From assembly GCF_036417845.1 (NCBI RefSeq), contig NC_089981.1, positions 80,021,268 through 80,085,267 of the forward strand: 64,000 nucleotides of DNA. Reading direction: 5' to 3'. The notes below the pieces were generated by a model. The model saw nothing but the letters and a program-made list of their open reading frames with translations, was not told where the DNA came from and did no database searches. Of the stretch, positions 6,141-58,689 are shown in pieces. The DNA comes from Apteryx mantelli. Its lineage: Eukaryota > Chordata > Aves > Apterygiformes > Apterygidae. Both the position numbers and the translations under genes were made by a program. The stretch's first letter is position 1. Each line of letters opens with the position of its first letter.

Positions 6141-9100
6141 GTGAAACGCTCTCAGAGACTTTGATGAAAACAGCAATCAGATATGGGAAACGAGTTCTGT
6201 GTTATCACTAATGATGCTAGCAACAGCTTAATGAACCAACTTCTGGGAACGCTGCCCATTCCTTGCCTGCACCGACTTTCTCTATGCCTTACTCCTCTAG
6301 GGTCTCTAATTGCTTTAGAGATCACCGTGCCCCCATGACGTGCTTGCATCTCTCCTGCACTTCAGCCACCTCTCCTCCAGCTATCTCCTTTGGAAGCTCA
6401 GTTGAGCACGTTACCTTCTTTTTCCCTTTTCCCCCTGAAGATCCCCACTTTACATACTTGCTCTTGTTTTAGGCTTAGGCAGCCTCGCATACTCCCTCCT
6501 CCCCTCTCTCTTGTCCTCTCCAGTGGTCAGGGTGCTGCTTGGTGGTCCTGGCCAGCTGAAAGCTCAGCAGTGCAGAACAGCTGGCCAGATCACCAGCACA
6601 TCAAGTGTCAGGTAAATCAGACAGTGATTTGTGCTAGCTATTCCTGCTTGGGAGAGAGGGTGCTTGCTCTCATTTTTTCTGTAGTTGTCCAAGCACTTGC
6701 ACCACACATCAGGATGATTTCTTTTTTGCATCTGAGAGAGAGGAAATAGTTGGGAACCAGTAACTGGTGCAATGCCAGAGCAATGGGGCAGCATCCAGGA
6801 CACATTGTGATCTATTCGCTGTATCACTACTCCTCAAGCAGGGATCCATCACCTAAATTCAGATGTCCTGTAAGCAATACACTGTAAAAACATCTAAATT
6901 CAGATACATTGATACCCTTTAATTTTATCCAGGATTGTGTTTAATCAAATCCAAGACAAATTTATCCCAGATAACAGTAATAGCATTAAATATTGAACCA
7001 GAGAGGAATTCAGTCCATTTTCTCTTCCTTACAGACAGATGATTTATGCAAACTGCAAAACTGCTGAGGCAAACACAAATACAAGAGAAGATACAAGTGC
7101 ACAGCAATCCCCTCTCAGTGGTGACCATGCTGGCTGTAGTGCTTTATTCCAGTCTATTTACAAATTATTAAACATATTGACTGCAGCTTCATGTTTTGAA
7201 ATCAAGAAGACAAAGAATCCATTTTTATTACTTTATTAACCTTTTTTATTTAACCTGGTAATAAAACTACTCAACTGTGTGGTGAAATCTCGATTAAAAT
7301 TTGCCTTAGCTCCAGGAGCCACACAGATAAATGCTCCAGTAGTTATCTAAGTTGGTTTCCCAGTAAAAGCTTTGCTCTGCTATCAGATTCTGTTATGTGG
7401 CACATAGATCCCTGCTTTACAGCCAGCATCATTTCAGGAGGTAGTTTGAAAGCTTTCAGGCTCTTCCAATGATTGCTTTGCTTTTCTTTCACAGCAATTA
7501 CAGTCCCTTCATTTAATTTCAATGGAAACTTTAGTGTTTTAGACCTTGCCCATGTAGCTGAATGCCATGAGCATCTCTGGATCTTATTTCCAGTCCTCAG
7601 GAGGACCGGTTTTGATGACCTAGTCTGATTACAGCATCTTTGACAGCTTTAAAGGAATTTGCTCGGAGGAAGGAGACAGCTGCTGCTCTGATGAAGGATT
7701 TTTCTGAGCAGGCCTCCCAAGCTGGCCGTGTCAGTATGAGATGCTGCCTGCACTTTTCATCATGACCAACAGGTACGTCCAAAAATGGTTTTGTGTTCTT
7801 GCCCTACATAGGCCAGTGTAGAGAGAGCTTCTATCATAAAACTGCTTAAACTGGTTCTGTCAAAATACTGCAGCTTCTTGGCTTCTTTTCCCTTGTGTAA
7901 TATATTCAGTCTCTCCAGACACTGTGGGCTGGATCTTTAGTCTGCTGTAAACTGGCATTGCTCCTTCAATTTATACAGTTTCCAGGGCGGGAACTGTCTC
8001 TTTACCAATGTCTGTAGGTGTTATACAGACCTGGTCTTAAAGAAGACTAATGAAAACTAGCATATTATTTATGATCAATAATAATCATTGTTAGGAGCTG
8101 ATATCATTAACAGGTGATGCAATAAAATCTATTAATGGACTTTGGGGGATTGAATCAGTATAAAAGCAATACAGTAACCTGCTCCTTTAGACCTTACTTT
8201 GCCATTAATGCTAAAGAGGTTGATAACAGTTCAGATCCCCAGGAACCCACTTTATGCAGAAAGAAGGTCTAAGCCACTTGCAGTGTGTGGAGCAGGAAAG
8301 GTCTATGACACCTGCCCAGTGCCATTCCCAAGCCCAAGAACTGACCTCTATTTTGTTCCTATAAAGCACCTAGAGTGAACAGGCCATTATTCAGATAGGA
8401 GTGTTTTGTAATAAAAGTTCTTGACAATTTTCTGAAATTAGAAAGTATTAATTATATATGCATCCCAGAGGAGCTGCCTGACTTTTTTGGAGCAAATAAA
8501 TCAAAGATTTCAGACAGAAGGGGTTTGGCTGTCCTTTTAGGGTTACACACTCCTAGGGCCAGAACTACTGCTATATAGACTGTTGTGCAAAGACAAAATA
8601 TGGGGGAATTCTTCCATAAGACATCTCCAGTCCTCTTTCTGTGCAAAGTGACCCCTGTGTAAGCTGGTGGCCTGAAGAACTGAGGACTGGTTGGTACACT
8701 GGAGTGCTAGCTTCTTGCCTCCAGGGCCCATCTCCTCTGCTACATGCTGCCCCCCAAATCTGACTCCAGATCAGCAAGTAAAGGTGACATAGACCACCAG
8801 TTCCACCTGCTCCAAATCCCCCTCTTTCTTCTCCTCTGTCACACTTATTTAAGTTGCACATTCCTAGAAAAAAGGAAGTGGAGTCATTATGCTGTCATGC
8901 AAGTGGTTGATTTCCATTCAGTGAACCCAAAGGAGCTGAAAGAGTGCTCTCTGAAATGGCAGTGGGGAGCACAGAAAAGGTCTTGTCTCACAGCCATGCA
9001 AACCTACCTGGCTCTGTTGGCCTGGTGCTTACTTGGTCTCCTTCTCCAACACTGATGCTGGTTCACACAAAGTCACGGTCTTCCCAGATCCTCCTGAGAG

Positions 9101-9507
9101 ACATGACAGAGTAGTTGCTCAAGGAGCCACCTTTTTCCTATGAGTTACTTTGAGGATGCTCTCTCGTGCTCTAGTCTCAGATGCACTTTCCACCCATGCT
9201 TTTGCCAAAGGACACATTTTGCATCCGGTGAAAACGTGCAGACTTCAAGAAAGTGTGTTCTTCTCCACATGCCCACCTACCTGAAACAGGAGAGGTACCT
9301 CGTCTGGCTCACCCACCACACTCTGGTAGTGGATTGAAGCCACGTCTGCAGCATTTGCTGCCACTATGGCAAATGCCAGGTAAAAATTCTTCTAGCACAG
9401 CCTGATAAATCTAGGCCAGAAGAGCAGATGAGAAGTAGACAGACTACAAGGCTTAGAAATGGGAACCAGGTGCCTTTGTGCAGTGACTGGTGGATGTGGG
9501 AGAAATT
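6141..9507. other. Non-coding stretch, no gene recognised
   Basis: No recognisable exon, RNA gene or young transposon. The longest frames (87-103 codons) have low-complexity, unfamiliar translations and are treated as chance. Weak MIR-like phrasing around 7980-8030 (gggcgggaactgtctcttta) is too short to call. Confidence 0.55.
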
Positions 9508-9655
9508 CATTTAAGGAGAAGGAAGTGTGAGGTAGATATTTTATTTATTATTTTAAACTATTTTTAAATTATTTCTAAATTATTTTTATTATTATTTATT
9601 ATTATTATTTCTAAATTATTTATTTATATCATTTAAAGAGAAGGAAGTGTGAGGT
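9508..9655. repeat. AT-rich tract flanked by 26-bp direct repeats
   Basis: A 26-bp sequence (catttaaggagaaggaagtg..., 9508-9533) recurs with one mismatch at 9630-9655. The 96 bp between are almost entirely A/T and made of tta/ttta/ctaaatt units, with tatttctaaattatt itself repeated. This is a local duplication by slippage or unequal exchange followed by AT expansion, or less likely an AT insertion with an unusually long target duplication. Confidence 0.8.
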
Positions 9656-12600
9656 TCATGTGCTGCAAGCAAAGAGTGTATTATTCAGAAGATTATGCTG
9701 TGTGTAAGTGACAAAAGGCTGGAAATTCACCACTCATAATAAGCTAGTGATAGCAGACAAGCCAGTGGAAATGGGACAGATGAAAGACCTTGGCCATTTG
9801 GCAGAAGTCAGTAAAACTATAGCTCAAGAGAGCAGAGTGGCAACCTTACAGTCAGATTGTGCCCCTCACATTAAAGTGACTTTAATCAGAGGGAAATAAA
9901 TTATTGCTCTAGTCAGAGAAGAAACTTGATATGTTGTTTTGGGATCAGCAGTTTTTTGCCCCATCTTTGTGTTTTACATGACTTCACTTGACTGAAGAGC
10001 AAGTTCTGGTAATACACATGCACCAGCAAATTTCCACTGACTGCAATATTTTTGCATGGGTATAAGAGGAAGACAACTTGACCCAAAGTGCCCTAACAAA
10101 TAAGTTTTGCTTTTTTAATAAAAATCTATTAGTCTCATAGATTACAAAAGCAGAGGTCAAATCCTGCCTGGTTTCTGCATGCAAAATTCTTCAGTGGAGT
10201 CAACATCCCTGGTTATGGAGCGGAGGCAGGATTAGGCCTCCTTTTACATTTTTTTAGAAATTTTGCACAGAAAAGATTTGTAGGGAAAATACATCTCATT
10301 CAAACAGACAGCAGCTTTCCTGGAAAGCAGTCCTATAGCATCCCATGCTAATAGCTTCTTGTTTTGGACTTGACAGATACGTCTGTCAATGAAGTTGACA
10401 ATTTCCCAGCTTCGGCACTGTCTATGCAGCAAGTGACAAAGCTTGCCAAAAACAGGAGTGTCACAGAAAGGTGTTTTAGATGTACAGCCTGAGGGCTGCT
10501 GAGCTGGAATCACAAAAACAGGAGAGGTTGTCTTCTGGAAGGAAGTGTTGTTGCATCAACTTTCCATCACCTTTATTTCAGAGTGGAATGAACCTTTTGG
10601 CCTAGTGTGGTACAAAAGGGAACAATTTGTTTTCAGTTCCCCAAAACACAAGGACACGTGCTAACCCTAGGTGGAGAGTGCAAGAGCACTCCAGTTTCAG
10701 TTCCCCCTAGAAACCCTAGAAATGCTTGCTAGAAACTGGTATAATGTGAGCGCAAGAATGCAAGACACTGAACCAGCTCACAGATTTTACTTTTGTCAAG
10801 TTGTAGCCACATAGCCAGAATCATGATAAAATGAGAGCTCAGTTCCAATCCTCCTCTCTTCAGACACTATTAATTCACCATCTGCCTCACCTGTGAAGCT
10901 TATTCCTTGCCCTTGCATTTGTCTATCTTTAAAAGAAAAGGTGAAGTAATTTCCATTGTTTCACTGAGGAGACTGATTGAAAGGCTCAAATATCTGAGAT
11001 GATGAAAAGTATGCTGATGAGAATTCCCCACATCAGAAAAAAGCTGATTTGTCGAAACAGAAATGATTCCCACGAGTATATAATTTAGGCTAAAATGTTT
11101 CTTGGTCCTGTACTAAATTTCTGATAAAAATGAAAGAGAGAAAGGAAAAAAGATGAGAGTGAGCCATAACTGTTACAAGGCAGCTAGTGATAACTTGCTA
11201 AGGTCACTGGAAGGGGCATCCCATTTTAAAGATCTGATCCAAACCTGTTGGGGATAAGAGCTGGACCTTGGTTTCACATTCTCCAGTAAAAGCCTATCCT
11301 GTTCTCAGCTCTTCCTTCATAAGACACAGACCTTCTGGGAGGGAGCAGGTCCCTCTGACACTCCTGCAGACATGCCAACATGTCCAATGATGCTCTGCTT
11401 TGGAATGAAAACACAGCTCAAACCATCCATTTGGTTGTGCAAAACAGAACTGGCTTTCTGCCTGACTTGCCAGTAGATCCTGAAGTCCAAAAGTGTTCTT
11501 TGATGTGCTGCCTGAATTTTCCCATTTTTAATTTCCTCACCTCTGTTAAAATTGAGAGTTAATTGAATATAGGCTCCAGAAGCACTTGGACAGTTTTGAA
11601 AATTGTACAGGTTACTCTTTGTTAAAACTACTTGTTCTACTCTGAAAACACCAGCCTCCAAGGCTTGCAGAGGTGGAGGAGAAAGACTCGCATACTAATT
11701 ACAAGAAATTAAATCCAGAACAAATAACCTCTTTAGTGGACTTTAATATAATTAACATTAGTGTAAAGCAGCTACCAATGACAGAAGGATTTGCCACTTG
11801 CTTTTTACATTCTTCATCCACTATCATCCTCCAAGCTATTTCCAATTCATGTGTATTTTATTCATTTGGGCTTTTCTCAGGCTTCTATCTGTCCTTCTCT
11901 GCAGTTTTCTGTTCTTCTTTCATGTCACTAATCTAATCTAATCCCCCTCCAAGGTGACTCTGCAAATGGAGCTCAAGAACATTTGCATCAATGCCTTCAA
12001 ATGATCTTATTCAACGATGCCTGTGTCTAGGTGGTTTACAATTCCCTTGGCTTCTTCTTTTCCCACTGCCTTGCAAAGCTTATGTCCCACTTGCTGCCTT
12101 CTCAGGACCAATCTGGGCATTAATGGCTACCAGTTTTCTCAAATCCATTAAGCGGCCCACTGAAGTCAACAGGAGCCTTTTGATATCTCCACAATTTAGG
12201 CGAGACTGCTAATCCCCATTTTAGACTATATCCTGCAGTTATCCTAGCCTGAATTCTCCTCAGGCCAAAATTCACTTGGGGAAATCGGTAATCATTAAAA
12301 AAAGCACCAATCAGCACAACACAGAACACAAAGTGATTGCTGCTATAATGGAACTCCTAAAGATAATTCTGTTCTTGCTTTTCCTGCTGGTTTTTATTAT
12401 CATGCTTTTTTGCCTCCCCTTTTATTTTATGCCAGCTCAGCCATCCACCTTCTGGCAGTTGGTTCAGTCTTCTCGTTTGTCTCATGGCTGGTAGCAGCCC
12501 TGCCATCAACAACAGCCCAGGATGCTTTAAGAAGAGGTTCTATTACCACTCCTTTTAGTTCCTAAAATATGATGACTGGGTGATAAAAGGTCTTTCAGAA

Positions 12601-15600
12601 TCACCATACTCACTTCAGCTCCCTCCGTCTCCTACATTCAGCTCAACAGGATTGACTGATGTGGAAAGAATGAGCCAACAGTAGATATTAGCATTTGGTT
12701 ACTTGGTAATTCTCCCTTAATCAATACATGCCTTACATTTTAGATCCCAGTGGCAGGATGAACAGAATGGAGGAGAAAACCTCAGGTGGAATAAATCTAA
12801 TAGCTTATGGGACATTTCCAAAATAAAAACACATTTGGATCACAAATAGTAGCTTGACTGTAATCTCAGGAGTCTAATTACGAAATGGATGTGGAAACAT
12901 TCTGTAACTGTTTAGAAAGTTCATTTCAGCAGCACAGAAATTCTCTCTGTATTTACTATATATCATCACGAGTTCTCTGAGGTTATGTGTAATATCTACC
13001 CAGAAAGACACATGAATAAGAGAGGCAATTTTAAGAAGTGGAGACAGATCCATGCCTGTTATAAGTCAATGGATTCGTGCCAGAGATGAATTGAGACCAG
13101 ATTCTTCAAGAGTGTTAAATCATTTCTGGACAGTCCCAACAGAGCAGGAATCACTCTGCCCTGCAGTGGGGATGTTCTCACCACAACACAAAATCCTACT
13201 ATCTATTTTGCTTGGTGTTTGTGTCTTTGTATTAAAGAAGAGTACAAACTCCTGCGCACCATGAATTCAAAACTGCTGCCACAGAGCCGGGAAGAGAATC
13301 ATGACTCAGAAGTGCCTGCTACATCCAGAAATAAAGCCTTTGCTCTGCCCTCAGAAATAAATCTTGCTGTGTTGAATCAGATGGCTGCATGCAATATTAC
13401 CATACCTAATCTAATATTTGCAAACAGTGGCAATCCCAGCCTGCAATTCATGGATGAATGGCTCCAGGCCTGCGTACCTGCATCAAAGGGGAACCTATAC
13501 ATCTACACAATCATGAAGACTTCCAAAGCCAGCTAGTAATATGTAAAGGGGAAAGTGAGGGGCTCTCAGGGAGGATAACCTTGTGGGTCCTTTGTGGAGC
13601 ACCATAGCAAGAGTAGATGTTGTGCTTTGTGCTGAGCACACTGTCCTTCCCTGTCGGCAAACAGACCTGGATACAGGAGGTCTGTAGGCATCACAGGAAT
13701 TCAGGAACATATGGAAAGGAAAACTGATTGCTTTCAGTGTAGTTGGCTACACAAAAGTATCAAGCATTATCAAACTACCTGACCATTCACTGCTTTGGCT
13801 TCATCATGCTTCACTGTTGATTTTTTTTCAAATCCATAAAAATGCCTCCATTTGGGAGCAACCATCAGAAGAGAGATTAACCGTGACCATTCTGATTATG
13901 GAATACACATGGAAATGCACAATCCAAAGGACAGATTTTTGTCCTAAGGATGGAATTTATACAGTGCTTTCCTTTCTGGAAGGTCTGAGGAGGACAAATG
14001 GTGCTGCACGACACCTCATGGGTGTTCTCCATCTTTCAACAGCAAATCCATTTCTCCAGAGGCAAAAAAAGGAAGAAGGCACATGTCTAATTACGCTCTG
14101 TGGAGCAATTCGCCTTTTTATTTCTTGATGTATTGCATGACTGGTGGAAAATCACTCTTGGCAAACACAAAACTTACCTTGCTGCCAAAAGGTGCGTCTC
14201 TAAATTATTAATCAAGAGCACACAGAACCACGAAAGGTGGAATATTGAACAAAGGCTCAATTGACACTCTGGAAGTTGAGGAAGATATGGAAGACTCCCT
14301 TCTAATTTATTTATTCCTTTTCTGTTCTGTTATCCTGATATGCTGCTTCCAGTTACCACTGCACCCCAAACTGTATGGTATTACGTGATTTTGTTTTCAG
14401 ATTGTTGGAGATAAAGTTACTTCATTATTAATATATATGCACTGTGCATATCCATAAATATTGTATATATACGTGTGTGTAAACCTACTGGAAGTGTTAA
14501 TAGTTAAGATAAACTAAGTCCATTATTGCAATGAGTGACTATTTCTATGACCCTATTTGCAATAAAACCAGATTCAATGATATGAGAAAATTGCTAGGTT
14601 TCGAAATAATTGAACCAGGCCAGACGAATCCCCACAAAGGCATCATTTACAAAGTACTTTGCTTGTCTAAAATATTTATTCCTGCAGAAGGAAATGGAAA
14701 AAGAGTTCGTATGGTTACACAGCTATCCTCTGAGCATAAAATTGTTTTATCATGTTATGTTTATTTCCTAGACATCTTCCATTGGGGTATTGCAGGAAAA
14801 TACTGGCTGTGCAGTTAGTTCCTTTGTGTGGACTGTTCATATTTATTCCCTGGGAAGTCAATCATGTTTTGTTCAGGCTTGTTTTGTTTTTCTGCTGAGC
14901 AAACACTTAAGCAACCCTTTTCATGCAAAAACTTATTTGCATATACAATGTGAATGTACCATTCAAAGTCAGTACTGTGCAGATATTTGAGATATCTTTG
15001 CTTTTTCTGCTATGTAACATAGGAAGTAGCAGTGGAGTTCACCCTTAAAACATTGGCTTTGCTGATTAACGCTGCGGTGGTCATGCTTAAGGACTCCATC
15101 AGTAGTTACAGATATTTTTATTCTGTTTTATATTGAAAGCCTGGATAGATTTTTACTATTAAATCCTTCCAGCAAAAAGCTTCCAAGCAATCTACAGACA
15201 AAGAATTATTCCCAACAATTATCCGCTAAATAAATCTGAATAATGAATATGTTCACAGAAGTCACTATCTATTTGTGAGCAATTAACCAAAAGAAAAAGA
15301 GGTGACATTCATAAACTAAATAATTCATTTATGAATTCTTTGTCCAGCTTCGGTTCTGACACATGTTGCATGAAATTAGATCAAAGCTTAGATGAAAAAT
15401 TACTTTAAATAAGAGGGTAATATTAAGGAAAATTCTTCCAACTTCCAAAGCAGATTATCCCAATATTGTACCAATTACTCATTACTAGTGATTTAAAAAA
15501 CTACTGAAGTTGTTCTCCTGGAATCTTTCACTTCATGCATTAAGTTGTGTTTTATTCCTATCATATATTCAATTTTAGGTTGTTAAACTGCAATCAAAAG

Positions 15601-15930
15601 CACTTAGTAGGAATGGATCTGTCCCTGTTATGAGGTTTGAACTTCTGACACCTTTAGCCACTGGAACTTGAGTGCCCAGGTAACTACTAATTATTCAAGC
15701 ATTTACAACCGTTACTATCAATTTAATTAGTATGCAATGGAAAAAATGTGATAATGGCACTATTAAATGATCATTCCTGGCATTTAGATAGCAAGCTTGC
15801 ATGAAAACATTTATAAGCTGCCCTATAATTTTTCAATCAAATGAACAGAAAAAATGTGTACATTTAGTCTCTAGAACAGAAAAGAACTGGTTTTCTGGTA
15901 CCCAAAATGATAAATATTGTCTCCACACTT
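9656..15930. other. Non-coding stretch, no gene recognised
   Basis: AT-rich sequence with only chance-length frames. It contains a perfect 17-bp palindrome at 14435-14451 (atatgcac-t-gtgcatat) inside an AT/TG-rich patch. No exon, RNA gene or young repeat recognised. Confidence 0.55.
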
Positions 15931-15931
15931 T

Positions 15932-15982
15932 CATTTCTTGAAAACTAAAAAAAAAAAAGAGTTTTTTTTTTCAAGAAAATCT
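15932..15982. repeat. Poly-A/poly-T foldback
   Basis: The left arm (atttcttgaaaac followed by an A run) pairs with the right arm (a T run followed by caagaaaat), giving a stem of roughly 20 bp with a small gap and a short loop. Each half reads as a homopolymer tract plus a ttcttgaaaa/ttttcaagaa arm. It could be a tiny foldback element or a templated slippage product. Confidence 0.65.
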
Positions 15983-18580
15983 CAATAATTTCTGACCAAT
16001 TGCTTAGAAAAACTATGAGCCTTGCTTTAAATAAAACCAGAGTTAGTGAAAAAGACAGGAACTTAGGTTTCTTATTCAAGTCTAAAAGTTCACAAGATCT
16101 CTGCAACTTTCTGCAGGAAAGTCTAAAGGAGGCTACAAAAGACCTTTTTATGTGCCTTGATGGATTACGCTAGTGAAAAGGAATGAGACATTTCACTTAG
16201 AGAAAGTGAAGGGTAGGTGAACACTAGATTTTGACTTCCTTCTTTGCACCTCCACCAATTTCACTGGCCAGAGTAGACTAATAAATTCCTTCTTATAATA
16301 ATTAGTAGCAAGTGATTATCAAGGAGGAACAAGAGTAAAAGCTGGCAACCACGGTTTGGAAGGCTTTGTCACCTTTCTGCCTAGGATCTGCTGTGAGCAA
16401 AGTATTAAAGAATGATATTTCCCTACCAAAAGCTCAGTTCAGGTATTCCTAAACTAACTGCTGTGAAATGCTTGCAGGATGCATCGGGGAGTTTTACAAG
16501 CCCTGCAGCTGTGAGCTGGTTGCAGCATGAGGAAAAGCCCTCCATCACCCCAATGCACAGGCAAGAGAAGGTAAGGTGAATCTCTCCAGATGGCTTTTAG
16601 AGATGGTCCATCAAGTAGAGAGCCCCAGGCCAGCAAAACGTGTCCTCCTCCACACTGACACTGCTCTCACTGCTGGAAAGGGAAAGGCTTGAAGACCGCA
16701 GCCCCGCAAAGCACTGAGGCTCTGACGCAAAGGCTGAGCTGCTGGAGGCAGCAAGGCACCAGGAGACTGCTGGTCCCACAACTGCTGTGGGGGATCCCCT
16801 GCTGTCCTGGCCCGCTTGTGCTTTCCAGGGCAGGAACCTTTCCCAGCTACTCCCCAAATCCCTGAAGGGAAGATTAAAACACTGCGAACGGCAGATCTGC
16901 TTTGCCCTGTTTTTTTGTGCCACCACAAGCATCTCACCTCCCTTGCTCTACTGGGTCAGTGTGAAACGAGGGCCCCAGTCTGAATGGCCCAAGACCCTGC
17001 ATAGGCGTAACACCGAAGGTCGTTGAAGTCTTTCCTCCCCCTTTGCAAGAAAGTTGCCCCTTGTGAAAGGAGCAATCACAAGGTCCTGCCATGGGAGACT
17101 CCATCTAGCCACCTGGAAAATAATACAGACCTGGAGTAGTTTAGACATGTCACAGCAAATAAATAGCTCCAGGAGAAGAAAAACAAAAAAAAACTCAAGC
17201 TTGTGCTTGTAGAGACAGTAAACCACCATATTTCAGCAATCATGGCAGGTATTTTTGACTGGAAATTGTATATTTAATGATGACCAGCCTTCAGCATTTG
17301 ACAAGGGGTTGTTAAAGCCTCTTGAACAGTAAATCATCTCTCTTGCCTATCAATAATCTTATTATAATATCCATAGAAATGTCTAAAGTAAAAATCCCAC
17401 TTTATTACTATAATAATGGATCTAATTTGTAAAACATATAAAGTGAAGCCATAACTGTACTGGAGGGAGATATATGCGATCCCACTGCATCTATATCATT
17501 TCCTGATGGCTTTTGCCCACATATTTTCAGCAGAAGAAGGATTAAAAGCAATGCTACTTTTAATATTTTTGAGATTGGGAATGGTTTCTGGAAAGAAAAC
17601 CAAAATGCTTATGGAACTGCAACAACCATTAGAAAAAGAACAGCCTTAACTTTACATTTATGTATATAAATCTGCAGGTGTTTATCTGTGATTTGCTCTA
17701 TTCAGCCCCTTTCCAGTTGCCAGGAAAGCCCTGCTTTCCAGCTGCATATCTAGTATTATCACTACGTGCTATTTTTGGCTACCGAGTACATTTCAAGTAA
17801 CGTCATTCTTCCCAAGCCAACAGTGGTATGAAGGGTGGAAACTCATCTTTCCACTCCTCTCTGTCATTTGCTGCTGCTTCCGCCGGCTTTGTGGCACTGC
17901 CTACTCTCTCCAGAGGTCTCCAGAGGGGTCTCCAGACGCTTTTCCCTGGTCCTCCCCATATTCTTGAGCAAGTCGCTTTCCAACTGAAGCTTCGTGTGGG
18001 AGGCTTCATGTTGGCATTCAGAGTACATGTCCCAAATATGTCCAGCCCCACCTTCCGATTCTAGCACAGAGGAGCTCCTGGTAAGTAATTTCTTGATGCG
18101 TGATAGAGTCGTTCTGTCCAATGCCCAGAGCTTTTCACAGGTGCATTGTTTTTAAGGGCATATAATTTTCTGACTAATACTTTGGTAGATTTCCAGCTCT
18201 TGCCACAGTATGTTAACACTGGGCTTCTGTCTGAGGGGAATATGCATCATTTTGTTTTGACACTGTGTAGCTTTGATTTTCATGTTGTTAAGCCTGGTAA
18301 ATATTGCAAATGCCACTTCATTTTTAAGGTCTTCCCTGGCTACATGCTACCCAACCAGCTAATTTTTTAACATTATTCCCTTGTGATGTGATGTTGCTGT
18401 GAGGTGTTTGGTAAAGCTTGCATGGACAGGAGCAGCTTGGGAAGTTACAAATCTCTTCAGATATAAGGTTCAGTTTCCTTCTCTCTGCCACTGGACCAGA
18501 CCTCCCAGCAAAATCTCTAACCACTGCTAGTCTGAGCTGGGCATCTTCCATTCTGTGTCCCCGAAGCTGTCTCACTTTAC
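15983..18580. other. Non-coding stretch, no gene recognised
   Basis: No exon recognised on either strand. A moderately GC-rich patch at about 16450-17030 carries overlapping frames of about 110 codons on the - strand, but their translations are unfamiliar and mutually overlapping, so they are treated as compositional. Confidence 0.5.
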
Positions 18581-18586
18581 ACAGAA

Positions 18587-18835
18587 TAATTAAATATTTA
18601 TTGGGCCAGAAAGTGTGTGCATGTGCATGGCTATAGCAGAGTGCTTAGGGCACTCACCTGGTAGATGAGAGACCCTGTTCCCAGTGCCTGCTCCAATGAA
18701 TAATTAAGTATTTCATATTAAGTATTCATTGAAGCAAGGACAGGAGCAGACCTCTCCCACCACCAATGAGCACCGAAACATCAGGCTATAAAGTCTTTCT
18801 CTCATTCTTTGGCCCAATGAATATTTAAGTATTCC
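18587..18835. repeat. Palindromic tRNA-like repeat with AT arms
   Basis: An outer inverted repeat pairs 18587-18607 (taattaaatatttattgggcc region) with 18810-18830 (tggcccaatgaatatttaag). Inside it is a second inverted pair at about 18693-18710 and 18717-18733 (caatgaatanttaa). The left inner half (18637-18690, gcttagggcactcacctggt ... gagaccctgttcc) resembles a decayed tRNA gene, and the right half (about 18735-18790) reads as its reverse complement. The whole is a nested foldback, probably a tRNA-derived SINE dimer or a MITE built from one. Confidence 0.6.
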
Positions 18836-18907
18836 TTGCCAAACGAGATGGTTTCACTGGGAGACACTGAAATTCCTTACTCCCGCTTCTGCCCCACGAC
18901 TCTGATG

Positions 18908-19040
18908 ATGAGGCTGTGTACATAGGAGAGGTGGGTTCATATTCCCTTGGACTCAGAAGGAAGTTGAATCCAGGTCCCCCAAACCTTGGATGGGTCTTCT
19001 AACTCCTGAGCTGCACACAGAGCTCCACCATATTGCTCCC
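18908..19040. repeat. Palindromic tRNA-like repeat, second copy
   Basis: The left half has gaggtgggttcatattccc (B-box-like ggttcatattcc at about 18933-18944). The right half, gttgaatccaggtcccccaaa at 18963-18983, is close to its reverse complement, and the element continues into cttctaactcctgagctgc. It shares the head-to-head tRNA-like layout with the repeats at 18587-18835 and 32705-32815. Boundaries are approximate. Confidence 0.5.
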
Positions 19041-20599
19041 AGACCACAAAACTGAGGTGGTATTGGTGCTTCTCTGACCCAGGCTCAGAAAAGTGTCCTC
19101 CTAAGTGAAAAGTTAGGTCAAAATTTGGCTTCTAAATCTCTCAGGAGAAGGTATCAAATCTGAAGACACTCCTCACTCCATGGCAGGTCCTACTGGCTAT
19201 GTTATAGCCTGCTCAATGGGCCAGCTGCTGTGGATGCCATTTTTAAGCATATAATTCTCTCATGAATCATGTAGGAAGCCCAGGCATCTGACTGAAAATC
19301 ACACTGGCAGGCTGGATCTGCCCAGCAATGTCCCCACTAAATCCCCTTCTGGAACCAGCCGATAGCGATATCTCTTCCGCAGTTGATGTGTGGTGAGCCT
19401 GGGTTCAGCCAAGGGGCTAATCAGAGAGGGCAGAAGGCAATGCTTGGCAAAATCTGCTTATTCTCCACACTCTGGGGTCTGCCACCCCCCAGACTGTAGA
19501 CAACGTGACTTAATCCTGCCTCTGCAGCCCAGGGAGCACCTGTGTGAATGGCTGAATGCAAGGGAACTTTCTGAAAGACAAGGTGTAGGGCAAGGATATA
19601 TGCTCTGTTTACTGGGCAGTAGAAAGATTAAAGCAGGAAGAAAACCATGGAGGAAAGAGTGTTCAGTTACCGTCTGGGGAAGACACACATAAAAAGAAAG
19701 AGGAACAGAGATAGTAACCAACAGGAATAAACAAACCACCTAAGAAATAACACCTTTTACTTAGCAGAAGAAGGGAGGGAAGAGGGGATAGAGCGCTGGA
19801 GAAGATGACTTTGATCTTAAAGTAAAAATAAAATGTGGAGAATCTCTGCCACCCACTTAGGCCTTTGAAAAGTAGAGAACTTGCCATCTGCTACTCCACT
19901 TTCTGAGGACAGTGGGTGTCTCTGAACTGAGCTGCTTTGGATTCACTTTGGGGATTTGACTCTGGGAGCATTCCTACGCAGAAAAGGGATTTATTACTGC
20001 TGTTGCAGATCTGGTTTTTGTCATTTGGCAGAATCCACAACAATCTGATTCCATAATCAAAGATTGAGTGTTGCTTCCAAGCAAAAATCAAACCAACAAC
20101 ATAATTAGGATATCAAAGTGCAAACGAATTACCTTCTCTCATGCCTCATAATAGTGTCCAAACACAAGACTGCTGTGTAGTCTCAGCTGCTGAAATGATA
20201 ACACCATCATTCAGGATGGGGCTGCTTAGCTCAGAACACTTGGAAAGTATGAATCATATGTTTCATATCACATTTATGTTTTTCTAGCTCAGTCTGTTGA
20301 GCAGCCACCTTCAGTAACTGTTCACTCCAATTTAGAGAAATCCTTTCTGAACACCTTTCTGCCCTTACTTTAACAAAGTGTTTTCCTGAGAAAGCAGCTT
20401 TAGAGTACTAAAAAGCTATGACGATATTGCCTTGCTGTCAATATTACAGTGATCTGAGTGTAAACATCACAACAGGTGTGTTTCATATCATGACTTTTGA
20501 GGGTCATGGTAAAAATATAGCCAGAAAAGTTCAAAACTTTACCTAGATTCATTACTCCAGTTTGAATGGCAACATTTTGTGTTTTGATCAACTCCTTAG
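19041..20599. other. Intron or upstream sequence of NRAC
   Basis: No exon recognised. The sequence runs into the pyrimidine/AG context (actccttag) directly before the NRAC exon at 20600, so at least its right end should be intronic. The missing N-terminal coding exon(s) of NRAC could be here or further left. Confidence 0.5.
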
Positions 20600-20726
20600 A
20601 CAGATGATAGTAGCTGTCCTCCTTCAATACTGAGGAAAAGGCCACCTGTGGACCAAGCTGTGGGGGAAAAGAGAAAAGCAGAGAGAAGAGTTCGATTTCG
20701 TGAGCCAGAAGAAGTCATTGAACATG
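20600..20726 (+). CDS. NRAC: NRAC internal exon with SILK and RVxF motifs
   Basis: A 127-nt exon: 42 codons plus one base. It starts after the acceptor actccttag and ends at the donor CATG/gtacga, a middling splice site. In-frame landmarks are CPPSILRKR (SILR codons at 20624-20635) and RRVRFREPEEV (RVRF codons at 20687-20698), separated by a lysine/arginine-rich linker. An in-frame TAG right before the exon sets its left limit. An acceptor 6 nt further in (gacag/at) is a possible alternative. SILR and RVRF fit the protein phosphatase-1 docking consensus [GS]IL[RK] and [KR]Vx[FW]. Confidence 0.87.
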
Positions 20727-23700
20727 GTACGAATGTTCATGCTACTAAGCCTTCTGGCATGACCTTTCTAGTTCCTAACATTCACTCTGTCTATCCTCAT
20801 TAGCCTCCCCCTCTGCTAACATTATCTGTTGCCCTGTGCTCGGCACGAACCAGAACAGCTGGAGGAACAGACACCTTTTGTGACATGCTTTGCAGAAGTG
20901 CTTCTGATCCTCCTGCCTGCCTGCCCTGGGAAAACAGAGGGTCCTCGATCAAAATAGAGCAACTCCAGGGCTGTTCTAACTGTGACCTCCTGGATCAGCC
21001 CCCGCAGGGAGCATTGCAGCACCATGGTTTAGTGGACACCATGGACTCTCTTGTTGCGTCCTTCTCTGCCCCAAATCTGCCCCAAAGCACTGCTTTCATT
21101 CAGACCATATTTAAATGTGCTCATGTCATTCTGGGTAACTGGGATGTAATACCAGTGGAGGGAGCTGGCCCTTTCTTATTTCATGTTTCTGAACAGCATG
21201 CCAATTAACTAAACACTAAAGGGACGCCTGAGCCTAGCTGGCCCATTGGGGTTAAAAGCAACCAAGTCACAACCATTTCTGTCAATGAGAGCACACAAGG
21301 AATAAAATAGCTAACGTAACCTCTGGTCTCTAATGCATGAGCCACAATAAGCAGTTTGCAGGTAGGTCAACTGGGAGTAACCTTAAGCAGGAGTCTAGCA
21401 CAAAGGATCTAATTTGCACTTCTGTACATGGCTATATTCAATCCATAACCTAATAAGGACTATCACGTTATTCTGACTTTCACAAGCTGGCCCAACTAAG
21501 AAAAAATGTATTTCTTGTTAGGGAACTAACACTGTATGGTTTTGGTATGTCTGTCAGTAAAAAACACTGTGACAGGATGGTGCAATTTCTGTGATGTCAG
21601 CCACATGTTCAGACTACTGATTCAGCTTGGCACCCGCCACTACGTCTGTGTGCAGACCTTGCATTGGTTTTGCAACATGCTGTTTCTCGTGCCTTCTAAT
21701 GCAGCAGTGAAACACTCCATCTTGATAAAGACATGGCCCGAGCTTTCCAGTCAAAACTGAATTCATGGAAAGGCTCAGAGAGGAAGCCCAAAACTCTTGC
21801 AAGCTCATTTGACTGCTCAAGAGCAGGATTTTGACGAGCTGCTGTACCTCCCTCAGCTCACTGCCAGAGTCTGCAGGCAGACCAGCACTGGTAACTCTGC
21901 AGTCGGTACAACTCAGGGGAACCTGGTTCATCTCCCACTGACACTGACCTCAACTCAGTTACACTTGAGTCACACTGAACTGCAAGGAGGGAGAAGACTC
22001 GGACACTGTTTGTTCCATTAAGACATGAAAGATGTCCCAATCTATAATTAATATTTTTATTACAAACAGCCTGTGATTTAGATGACTTGCTGTTTGTACA
22101 TACAGCAGTATTAATATAGAGACTGGTAAGGGGAAGGTTGCTGGCACCACTGAAATTTTTCCATTCCCTGGACTTTTCATCCTGGATTGCATCTGGGCCC
22201 CAGCTGCCAAGCAGAGGCTGTTCCAGGACATTGCTGGATGAAGGTTGTATCTTACAGTGGGGTTTGTTTTCTAAACTTAATTCTTGTCTCAGCCTCCTGG
22301 CCTTTCTCATTTCCCTTCTAGAAATGATTCAGAATAAGAAGCTCTTTTTTTTTTTTTTTTTTTTGGTGAGAGTTAGCCGATTCCTGATCTCCCTACAACA
22401 GAAGCAATCTCTGTCTCTGAAATCCCTCATGCAGCAATTGTTACTCACTTTTCTGAAGTGCACTTATATCCGCATGTTTCTATGGAGTGGGCAAATCCTC
22501 ATCTGGCATAAACCTCTGCAGCCAAAAGCAGTGTGAGAAGTGGCCCCGTGTCTGTAAGGCAATAGGCAATTTCAGAGATACCACCCGGCTGCCAAGTATG
22601 CTTGCTTTCCTATTCACCTGCTGCACAGAGGCTTTTCCAGGCATGTAATAACATTTTCATTCTGTTTTCTAGCCATTTCCTGCTGTGACTACGTAGTGGG
22701 TAAGTTGAAGATTGCCTTTATGACTGTGAGCCATCCATGGCACTAACCTGAGGTTGCTTTGTGGCTGCGGGGATGCACTGTGCAAATTACCCTCTAAATG
22801 TGAAGCATTTCATACTGTCCCTGGTGGTTGCTTTTTCTTTTTTGGCACGTGAAGCACAGGGTGTTGATGAGGTCTGGTAGGGTATATTAAACACAACATT
22901 TAGTAAGACAAATAGTGGAAACAAAAATTAAATCCCTGAAGCTATTTTTAATTTAAAGACAATTAATATTTTTATGGCAATAAAATAGGTACAGGTTTTT
23001 CACTAAGATATGCAGGGAAAGCACCCCAAGCGAAACAGCAGTGCTCCCCACTGACTTTCATGTGTGGGGAATAGACAATTCATTTGTATGCTGGCAGCAG
23101 GGTAGAAATAATAAAAATAATATGTTTCTTCTTTTTGTTTGCGAGGATATTTGAGGCCAAACAGCCTCACAGACCCTCAAGGAAATGTGTGTATATGGAT
23201 GTTATTACTACGATGATCGTTTCCAGAGGCCCCAGCCAGCCTCCAGGTCCTACTATATGCAGTGCAATAAGAGGGGAGGGGATACATATATACGTGTATG
23301 CACACACACACAGCCATAGTTAGCTTTATCGCTAATGACTTGCCTCAGGTGACAGCAAAAATGCATAGCCAAGGCAGGAACGAAACAAAAATCTCCTGTA
23401 TCTCAGTCCAGTGCCTTTCCCACAGAGGAGTTGTCCTCTTCCTCGTCTAGGCACTTGGCTAGGGCTGAATGTCCTGTTGTAACAAATAACTTAACTAGCA
23501 AATTTAATCCTTGGTTTTGTATTTAGAATTTAGAGAAAATCATGACTGCATTTGAGATCGCCTGGAAATTTCACATGGAAAGTAACATCCATGAGATGGA
23601 AAAAGGTTATAAGCACTTCATTGAAAAGGGCTGCTGTTGAAAGCTGTTCTGCATTCACAGAAAACCTGCTCTATTATAAGATATGCTTATCAGACAGGCC

Positions 23701-25675
23701 CTGTCTTCTGAAAGACAGATAGGCACCCAGCTGAGAGCCACGAGCTGTCTCATGTGGTCTGGGAGATGGCAAAGGGGAAATATCTGTTTCCAGTTGCAAA
23801 TCTCTGCAAAAGCAAAAAGTGATAAGTGATTCCCTGGCTAAGTATCTTCATATAAACTATTCATAAAATAATTCCAAATAAACAAATTTATAAAAATTGA
23901 AGTCTGCTCATGGATAATTTGCAAACAGAGAGAAGGCCTTAAATTCAAATGAATAAATTATTTGCTGCAAATAATTCACTCAGCTCTGTTATGGGACATT
24001 GATTTGGTTTCTGGTTAGCTCTAAAATGACTGCTTATTAACATTCTACCTTTTCCCCATACACTTTTTGATACATTATTATGTGTTTCTTGCTTGGTTTT
24101 ATGATTTCTACCTTCTTCTCTGTACATCTGTATGACAGTTTAATTGACTGCTGTGTATTGCAGGGCTGGTAATAGCAGCTAATTTAAATATGTTACAGCT
24201 AATGTTGACCCTTTACCCATAATAATGCACACTGCATTTTTATCTTCTTATTGATTATATGCATATGGCAGGAAAATAGCTGCATGCTACGGGTTTTTAT
24301 TTGGGCATGAATTTGGTTTTATACTGCACATTTAAGGTGCAAAGCGTGCTATAAAATAATACTGATTGTGCAACAACCACGCAGTCGAGCAGAGCAGCCG
24401 TTACACTCTCTGGAGTGGCTCCCAGGAGCACAAGCAACCCAGAGCGGTGAGTCTGTGGCTTGGGGACCAGCCTGTGGGGCAGCGCGGGCCCCAGAGAAGG
24501 TCCCACTGCCTCGGTGGCAGGGAGAACTGCTGCCCTGGCTGCTGCCGGCGGGGAGCCACCGTCCCGCCTCCCACGCGTCGTGCGGTGCTCAGGACGCGGG
24601 ACCTTCTTCTCTGAGACCGAGCAGGGTTGAGTGGAAGGCATCAATGTTTTCCCATCGTGGAAGCAGTCTGCAGGTAGCCCCAAATTGCTCAGGCTAGCTG
24701 AGAGGGGAGGGGACGCTTTAAAGTGGCCAAATCTCTGTCAGAGTCGCACCTTAGAGCTGCTTGGATGTTGGAGAGATAAACATAGCCCATTGATTTCCAC
24801 ACTTGTACTATGTCTGACCTAGGACACTTTAAACATGCTTGAATTATATTTTAACAGGCCAGAAAAAATGTTTACAATGCTCTCCTGCTTAAGAGCAAGC
24901 ACTGAGGACATTCCAGTGTAATTAGCACACCTAGCACTTAGAGAGAGGTTAAACCTGCCAGGGCTTTCTAAATACGCCTCTTGGTTAATAGATTCTCACC
25001 TCGGTTCTTACTATAAATAGCAGGGGCCCTGAACAAGCTGAGTTATCAGGGAAAAAGACAGAAATCTACATCTCCCTTTATAGAACATTTGTGAGCATTA
25101 AATAATTAGATGTAGTTGCTTAATGTCCTCCTAGTATTTAACCCAGTGTTTAGCTTAAATATATAAAAAATAATTGCTGGAAGGAAATTTGAGATTATGC
25201 ATTAGCTATGGTAATCCTGTTCTTATTGTATATAATTAAACTCTTGTAATGCTCCATTAGATGAGATCTTTTATATTCACTACCCTCCATCGGGAGGTGT
25301 GACTCACTATCACTTAACTGATGCCTACAGAAGTTTTCACAACCACAGCCCCGTGTATCCTGCTGTTCCCAGAAAAGCAGGACAAAGACATCAGCAGGGG
25401 GTCAAATTTGGGAAGTGTTTAAGATGACACTTAAAAAATGCTGCTTTCTTTCTCCTTCCCACCCCCTTTCAGTACATGACAGGTCATCATCTGGATTGCC
25501 TGTGTTCCTGTGGCTTTCATTTTGTGCCGTGCTGATCCTGGCTGTGAGTCTCTACTACACCAGCACAAAGCAAGATTTCAAAGTCCTGGAAGAATTTCAA
25601 TCCCGACTCGTTATCTTCTTTCTTCAGATAAGACACATTGCTCAGAAATGCTGGACTTGGTTTACAAGGCAATAA
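20600..25675 (+). CDS. NRAC: NRAC (C14orf180 orthologue), 3' coding part, two exons
   Basis: A small single-pass membrane protein (nutritionally regulated adipose and cardiac enriched). Two exons are visible, 20600-20726 and 25473-25675. They join in phase (CAT G + TA CAT) to give 42 codons, one split Val codon and 66 codons before the stop. Recognition rests on three blocks shared with the human protein as I remember it: CPPSIL, a basic RRVxFREP block, and a C-terminal hydrophobic segment followed by a leucine-rich amphipathic stretch ending RHxAxxCW. One predicted transmembrane helix lies near FLWLSFCAVLILAVSLYY; the preceding part is hydrophilic and basic. The N-terminal exon(s) and the start codon were not found. 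A small extra exon in the 4.7-kb intron cannot be excluded, because the human linker there is longer. The gene converges with TMEM179, as in human. Confidence 0.85.
22345..22364. repeat. Poly-T tract (20 nt)
   Basis: An uninterrupted run of 20 T in the NRAC intron. There is no identifiable retroelement body beside it, so it is recorded as a simple repeat. Confidence 0.95.
23315..23435 (+). repeat. MIR-like SINE relic
   Basis: The sequence tgacttgcctcaggtgacag, then gccaaggcaggaacgaaac, then tctcagtccagtgcctttcc follows the order of the MIR 3' half (tgacttgcccaaggtcacac ... ggcagagccaggaatagaac ... cccagtccagtgcc). Strongly decayed. It lies in the NRAC intron. Confidence 0.6.
24400..24620. 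promoter_or_regulatory. Small GC/CpG-rich islet in the NRAC intron
   Basis: About 220 bp with clearly raised GC and several CpG (gcagcgcggg, gctgccggcgg, cccacgcgtcgtgcggtgct, ggacgcggga) in otherwise AT-rich intron. It could be an alternative promoter, an enhancer or an unrecognised exon. Frames of 80-128 codons cross it on both strands, but their translations are unfamiliar, as expected from composition. Confidence 0.35.
25473..25675 (+). CDS. NRAC: NRAC terminal coding exon (transmembrane and C-tail)
   Basis: Begins after a strong acceptor (ccaccccctttcag) with TA completing the split codon, then 66 codons and a stop at 25673-25675. It encodes a short serine-rich linker, a single hydrophobic helix of about 20 residues (FLWLSFCAVLILAVSLYY), a polar YTSTKQD turn and an amphipathic C-terminal helix (VLEEFQSRLVIFFLQIRHIA) ending KCWTWFTRQ. 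This matches human NRAC position by position in charge and hydrophobic pattern (ALEDLRARLL...LRHVALTCW, from memory). Confidence 0.87.

Positions 25676-39525: not shown

Positions 39526-58689
<19,164 letters not shown>

Follow-up and report, generated by a model that had tools for sequence, protein, structure and literature searches.

The last two coding exons of NRAC (C14orf180) are found on the plus strand of the window, the whole 64,000-nucleotide stretch analysed here (contig C4 of a 1.504 Gb assembly). The penultimate coding exon occupies positions 20600–20726 (127 nt) and is entered in phase 0 and left in phase 1. From 25473, likewise in phase 1, the last coding exon encodes a transmembrane helix and a C-terminal tail up to a stop codon ending at 25675. 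Joined, the two exons match the Pfam family DUF4658 (PF15555) over profile positions 7–122 of 123 with 64.7 bits (E = 1.2e-17), above the curated cut-off of 27 bits, and each exon also matches on its own (E = 1.9e-8 for the penultimate exon; E = 2.2e-9 for the last, over 25493–25672). A human NRAC sequence served as query and reference; in tblastn it placed its two best matches in the window on these exons (E = 1e-7 and 6e-6, the next being 0.19), and it scores 190 bits against DUF4658. Four pieces of TMEM179 were found on the minus strand at 39529–48081, with 61–84% identity to a human query, and TMEM179 is presumably the neighbour of NRAC in human as well. The DUF4658 match and the nearby TMEM179 bear out the gene call made in the first-pass annotation. 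No Rfam family reached its gathering score anywhere in the window (1–64000). The human NRAC sequence has 160 residues, the length published in PLoS One 2012 (PMC3459823), and it carries R98, G102, G123, and R124, which are named in a legend of EMBO J 2025 (PMC12436663).

Translated in frame from 20600, the penultimate exon reads TDDSSCPPSILRKRPPVDQAVGEKRKAERRVRFREPEEVIEH (20600–20725) plus one nucleotide. SILK-type docking motifs for protein phosphatase-1 (PP1) follow the pattern [GS]IL[RK], and this exon encodes one, SILR (20624–20635), N-terminal to an RVxF docking motif, RVRF (20687–20698). The two are separated by the basic linker KRPPVDQAVGEKRKAER (20636–20686), which has 17 residues and a net charge of +3. 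RVRF agrees with the RVxF consensus given in PMC6406801. The reading frame, the positions of SILR and RVRF, and the 17-residue basic linker, all proposed earlier from the letters alone, were reproduced by translation. The exon is bounded by an acceptor in which ctccttag precedes ACA and a donor in which ATG precedes gtacga. An in-frame TAG just 5′ of the exon closes the frame, and there is no in-frame start codon 5′ of the motifs within the exon, therefore a further upstream coding exon must exist. A search of 8000–20590 gave no convincing candidate for the start-codon exon.

The transmembrane helix LPVFLWLSFCAVLILAVSL (25496–25552) of the last exon has a mean hydropathy of 2.5. The 102 residues of the joined exons span 116 DUF4658 positions, so that about 14 are missing, and in the alignment these fall between RVxF and the helix, a stretch some 14 positions longer in human NRAC. 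Consortin, discussed below, is similarly short in this region. A missing middle exon encoding the human stretch YIADKNATATVR was sought within 20726–25473, where 265 phase-1/phase-1 candidates were scored; only two had good splice scores, and both were dissimilar. An identical junction in consortin speaks against such an exon as well, and the idea was rejected.

With the DUF4658 profile as a stand-in for individual vertebrate orthologues, constraint was examined by substituting residues of human NRAC (43–82 singly to alanine, with alanine changed to glycine, and 83–98 in pairs) and recording the loss from the unchanged score of 84.2 bits. Human NRAC had been said to carry SILK and RVWF at the same places as here, and the sequence used agrees. 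Within SILK the losses were 2.4 bits (S46), 4.0 (I47), 4.2 (L48), and 1.4 (K49), and within RVxF they were 1.5 (R68), 3.4 (V69), and 5.5 (F71), so that K49 and R68 are motif positions with only modest constraint. SILK together with the Arg, Val, and Phe of RVxF (thus excluding W70) averaged 3.2 bits, compared with 1.1 for linker positions 50–67 (one-sided rank test, P = 0.003) and 1.7 for all 33 other single positions (P = 0.019). P62 (4.0 bits) is an exception within the weakly constrained linker. The largest single losses were found at Y81 (5.8 bits), F71 (5.5), H80 (4.9), and L48 (4.2), followed by I47, P44, P62, and P74 (4.0 each), I82 (3.8), C43 (3.5), V69 and V79 (3.4 each), and R67 and E73 (3.3 each). 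C43, P44, P62, P74, and V79–I82 are thus constrained as strongly as the PP1 motifs. The suggestion that the PP1 motifs would be the most constrained residues stands for the comparison with the linker and fails for the Cys-Pro before SILK and the VHYI after RVxF, which equal them. Three substitutions raised the score: W70R by 2.9 bits, T78A by 2.6, and R57A by 1.9. The gain with W70R shows Arg at x of RVxF, as in the RVRF found here, to be the residue preferred by the family, and the human Trp is probably derived; human NRAC, with RVWF in place of RVRF, may bind PP1 differently.

Further profile searches revealed a relationship to consortin (CNST). The joined NRAC exons match Consortin_C (PF15281) with 27.8 bits (E = 2.7e-6) nearly end to end, residues 9–106 of NRAC lying on profile positions 10–113 of 114. 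Since this is below the curated cut-off of 30 bits, NRAC is termed here a consortin paralogue and not a member of the family. The docking exon alone matches weakly (E = 0.0077), and the last NRAC exon alone was absent from the Consortin_C matches. Replacing SILR and RVRF with alanine left 15.8 bits (E = 0.013), removing the tail left 21.2 bits, and scrambling the linker (in a hand-typed version one residue longer) left 26.9 bits. Reversed joined NRAC gave no Consortin_C match, and neither of the two N-termini tried, those of KNL1 and inhibitor-2, matched DUF4658 or Consortin_C. Among eight shuffles that kept the motifs and the composition of each segment, one reached Consortin_C (14.4 bits) and one reached DUF4658 (18.5 bits). 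Human NRAC was absent from the Consortin_C matches even with E values of up to 10 admitted. A human consortin C-terminus was confirmed in its identity by the same profile (E = 6.9e-56); its score falls by 12.7 bits when SILK is broken, by 10.7 when RVRF is broken, and by 13.6 when the linker of 20 residues is scrambled, which argues that the consortin linker is not free to vary. In the DUF4658 search the consortin of this genome was marginal (E = 0.64 for both exons and 0.049 for the docking exon), and human consortin was not listed. In a single BLASTP comparison NRAC matched human consortin with 31.6 bits (E = 3e-7); motif-keeping shuffles equalled the score of this NRAC against the human protein in 11 of 3000 cases, and that of human NRAC in 48 of 3000.

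When Consortin_C was searched against the same genome, two matches were found (E = 5.2e-33 and 3.6e-10), and these are the last two exons of consortin on the minus strand of contig C3. The consortin docking exon lies at 48663694–48663559 (136 nt) and the last exon from 48658080 onward. Both docking exons start in phase 0 with eight codons before SIL, and in both genes the donor is in phase 1, nine codons and one nucleotide after the Phe of RVxF. The last exons encode 67 residues in NRAC and 68 in consortin, with the helix near the start and the tail running to the stop in both. Intron positions and phases are thus identical between NRAC and the consortin C-terminus. Collinear similarity also extends beyond the motifs, as the NRAC–consortin alignment score of 86 was reached by none of 5000 shuffles made within segments with the motifs kept. 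For the helix and tail on their own the signal is weaker, with the score reached by 56 of 5000 shuffles, and human NRAC is weaker still against consortin (24 of 5000 motif-keeping shuffles, and 344 of 5000 for the helix and tail). Across the docking exons of two NRACs and two consortins (one of each being human), nine residues never vary (S, I, L, R, R, R, V, F, and E), and seven of the nine belong to SIL and RRVxF. The question of paralogy is regarded as settled because consortin exons of the same genome share boundaries and phases with NRAC, and NRAC and the consortin C-terminus are almost certainly paralogous. This kinship is a new result and contrary to a 2025 paper, in which NRAC was described as having no related genes. 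A third paralogue was sought in the same Consortin_C search, which gave nothing beyond the two consortin exons within an E limit of 0.001 and from which NRAC itself was absent. In the literature searched, no link of NRAC to PP1 or to consortin was found among the matches listed.

Inhibitor-2 had been put forward as the known system to compare, and consortin takes its place as the nearest by shared motifs and exon structure. Consortin resembles NRAC in having SILK followed by RVRF, a basic linker (20 residues, +4), and one hydrophobic helix with a C-terminal tail, within the same exon boundaries and phases. Its long N-terminal part is absent from NRAC. Consortin also carries the designation PPP1R64, a name that gave no match in the literature searched. 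Inhibitor-2 and KNL1 share the order and type of SILK and RVxF; unlike NRAC, neither is known to have a membrane anchor. Taken as a whole, the interpretation offered in the first-pass annotation holds for gene identity and motif fit, and gives way on the sole constraint of the PP1 motifs and on inhibitor-2. Consortin is a trans-Golgi connexin receptor in membrane traffic and binds GGA1 and GGA2 according to PMC9157791; it acts at the trans-Golgi network, in contrast to NRAC at the plasma membrane.

In EMBO J 2025 (PMC12436663), residues 1–112 of mouse NRAC are assigned to the inside of the cell and two transmembrane segments are described, a topology that is itself largely a prediction. Both docking motifs fall in the part assigned to the cytosol. 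By hydropathy, a single strong helix (2.5) is seen in NRAC, whereas its tail (0.9; window positions 25559–25672) is weak and amphipathic, and the consortin tail is lower still (0.4). A second true membrane pass is therefore doubtful, and the two-pass topology may be wrong. The single transmembrane helix claimed earlier agrees with the one strong helix and conflicts with the published two-pass model. Counted over the two NRAC exons alone, the net charge amounts to +1 ahead of the helix and +3 behind it, so that a cytosolic N-terminus is not favoured by the positive-inside rule.

From these observations it is proposed, with a probability of roughly two in three, that NRAC is a membrane-anchored protein that docks PP1, originated from a consortin-like tail, and acts in the CD36/caveolin-1 complex; PP1 docking as such is judged likely to about the same degree. 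The proposal joins the gene identity, motifs, family constraint, and consortin homology observed here with the published topology, CD36/caveolin-1 complex, and oleate effect; PP1 binding, PP1 activity, and the substrate are inferred in it. NRAC would be a small membrane protein made of a two-exon module as in the consortin C-terminus, one exon serving cytosolic docking with SILK, a basic linker, RVxF, and perhaps a PhiPhi motif, and the other encoding the transmembrane helix and tail. On the surface of PP1, SILK and RVxF would each occupy a pocket, and the basic linker would cover the acidic surface between them and leave the active site free. The linker charges fit such a mechanism (+3 in NRAC, +4 in consortin, and +4 in human NRAC). 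Targeting rather than inhibition is suggested because no element that would block the active site was recognised in NRAC. In inhibitor-3, loss of RVxF raises the KD from 15.7 to 3460 nM and its non-canonical SILK mattered little; by analogy, RVxF may carry most of the PP1 binding in NRAC.

According to PLoS One 2012 (PMC3459823), NRAC is expressed in fat and heart and resides at the plasma membrane. EMBO J 2025 (PMC12436663) reports 13 NRAC partners, with CD36, caveolin-1, and cavin-1 named, and finds that without the first transmembrane segment (tm1) NRAC neither binds CD36 nor restrains fatty acid uptake; oleate leads to ubiquitination of NRAC and its loss from the surface. In this way NRAC could retain active PP1 at the plasma membrane, within a CD36/caveolin-1 complex bound by its first helix, where local dephosphorylation would help keep CD36 on the caveolar route. 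Candidate substrates would be proteins of the caveolae or factors that regulate the route of CD36, and when high fatty acid causes NRAC to be ubiquitinated and lost, PP1 would go with it. In the same source, NRAC 1–112 with a CD36 helix in place of tm1 left fatty acid uptake unlowered (PMC12436663), so the docking part alone is insufficient.

Other explanations of the conserved docking exon differ in how much of this they accept. An unlikely reading, yet the weightiest of them, keeps the paralogy and lets the block bind another factor, such as a clathrin or caveolar adaptor, with the PP1 likeness incidental. It would account for the equal constraint on residues outside the PP1 motifs and for the role of both NRAC and consortin in steering membrane cargo, and no phosphatase is named among the NRAC partners in the text of EMBO J 2025; against it, seven of the nine invariants are SIL and RRVxF, and each motif agrees with its consensus, the two standing in their usual order around a basic linker. 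In the main text of that paper, 'PPP1' does not occur and 'phosphatase' appears solely for inhibitor reagents (PMC12436663). That NRAC acts only through its first helix on CD36, its N-terminal tail being passive and the motifs leftovers of a consortin-like ancestor, is improbable: the dependence of CD36 binding and lowered uptake on tm1 agrees with it, but leftovers would decay, and in the profile several motif positions rank with the most strongly constrained.

The least credible explanation, with hardly any weight, is that short patterns came together by chance in a basic exon. SILK followed by RVxF 5–60 residues on was found in one of 1344 six-frame stop-to-stop stretches (at least 30 aa, whole window), and shuffling all 1344 gave 0.15 such pairs on average, so the mere occurrence of the pair in 64 kb is only mildly improbable. 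When the residues of the docking exon itself were shuffled, the pair arose at a rate of 1.5e-5 (200,000 shuffles). Stronger evidence than the occurrence of the pair comes from family constraint and from retention in consortin: chance would have to act in a real exon and to be matched by a paralogue with identical exon boundaries. The descent of NRAC and the consortin tail from one module carrying the docking pair is more solid than PP1 docking by NRAC. The homology and the conserved pair together give NRAC an evolutionary origin and a directly testable mechanism. A more speculative extension, tentative at best, is that NRAC and consortin belong together in a vertebrate family, so far unrecognised, whose members are PP1 scaffolds anchored in membranes and would steer the route of cargo membrane proteins, CD36 in fat and connexins elsewhere, by local dephosphorylation; fatty-acid-triggered loss of NRAC would then remove the phosphatase and switch CD36 from caveolar to clathrin uptake.

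A possible third PP1 motif of the PhiPhi type is suggested by the sequence 5–7 residues past RVxF, namely VIEH (20714–20725) here and VTVH in human, the register being uncertain. Human NRAC offers V-T or V-H for it, and the NRAC of this genome V-I or E-H. Substitution of human V79, H80, Y81, and I82 cost 3.4, 4.9, 5.8, and 3.8 bits against DUF4658, and the human Tyr and Ile of this block are not kept in this genome. Searches of solved structures gave one match for the exon, none for the human RVxF-PhiPhi stretch, and two weak matches for the joined protein, with nothing meaningful among them. GADD34 (PPP1R15A), which, unlike NRAC, is not known to have a SILK motif, offers a comparison for this segment. 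GADD34 resembles NRAC as a membrane-linked PP1 regulator with a KVRF motif, and human NRAC has a comparable V-x-V-H past RVxF. PhiPhi stands at a similar distance in known PP1 partners, as EL (515–516) after RVSF (505–508) in Ki-67 (PMC5005033) and as V564-H565 after KVRF (555–558) in GADD34, whose His is stacked against a tyrosine of PP1 (PMC10743859). The V-H of human NRAC lies seven residues past RVxF, compared with five in GADD34.
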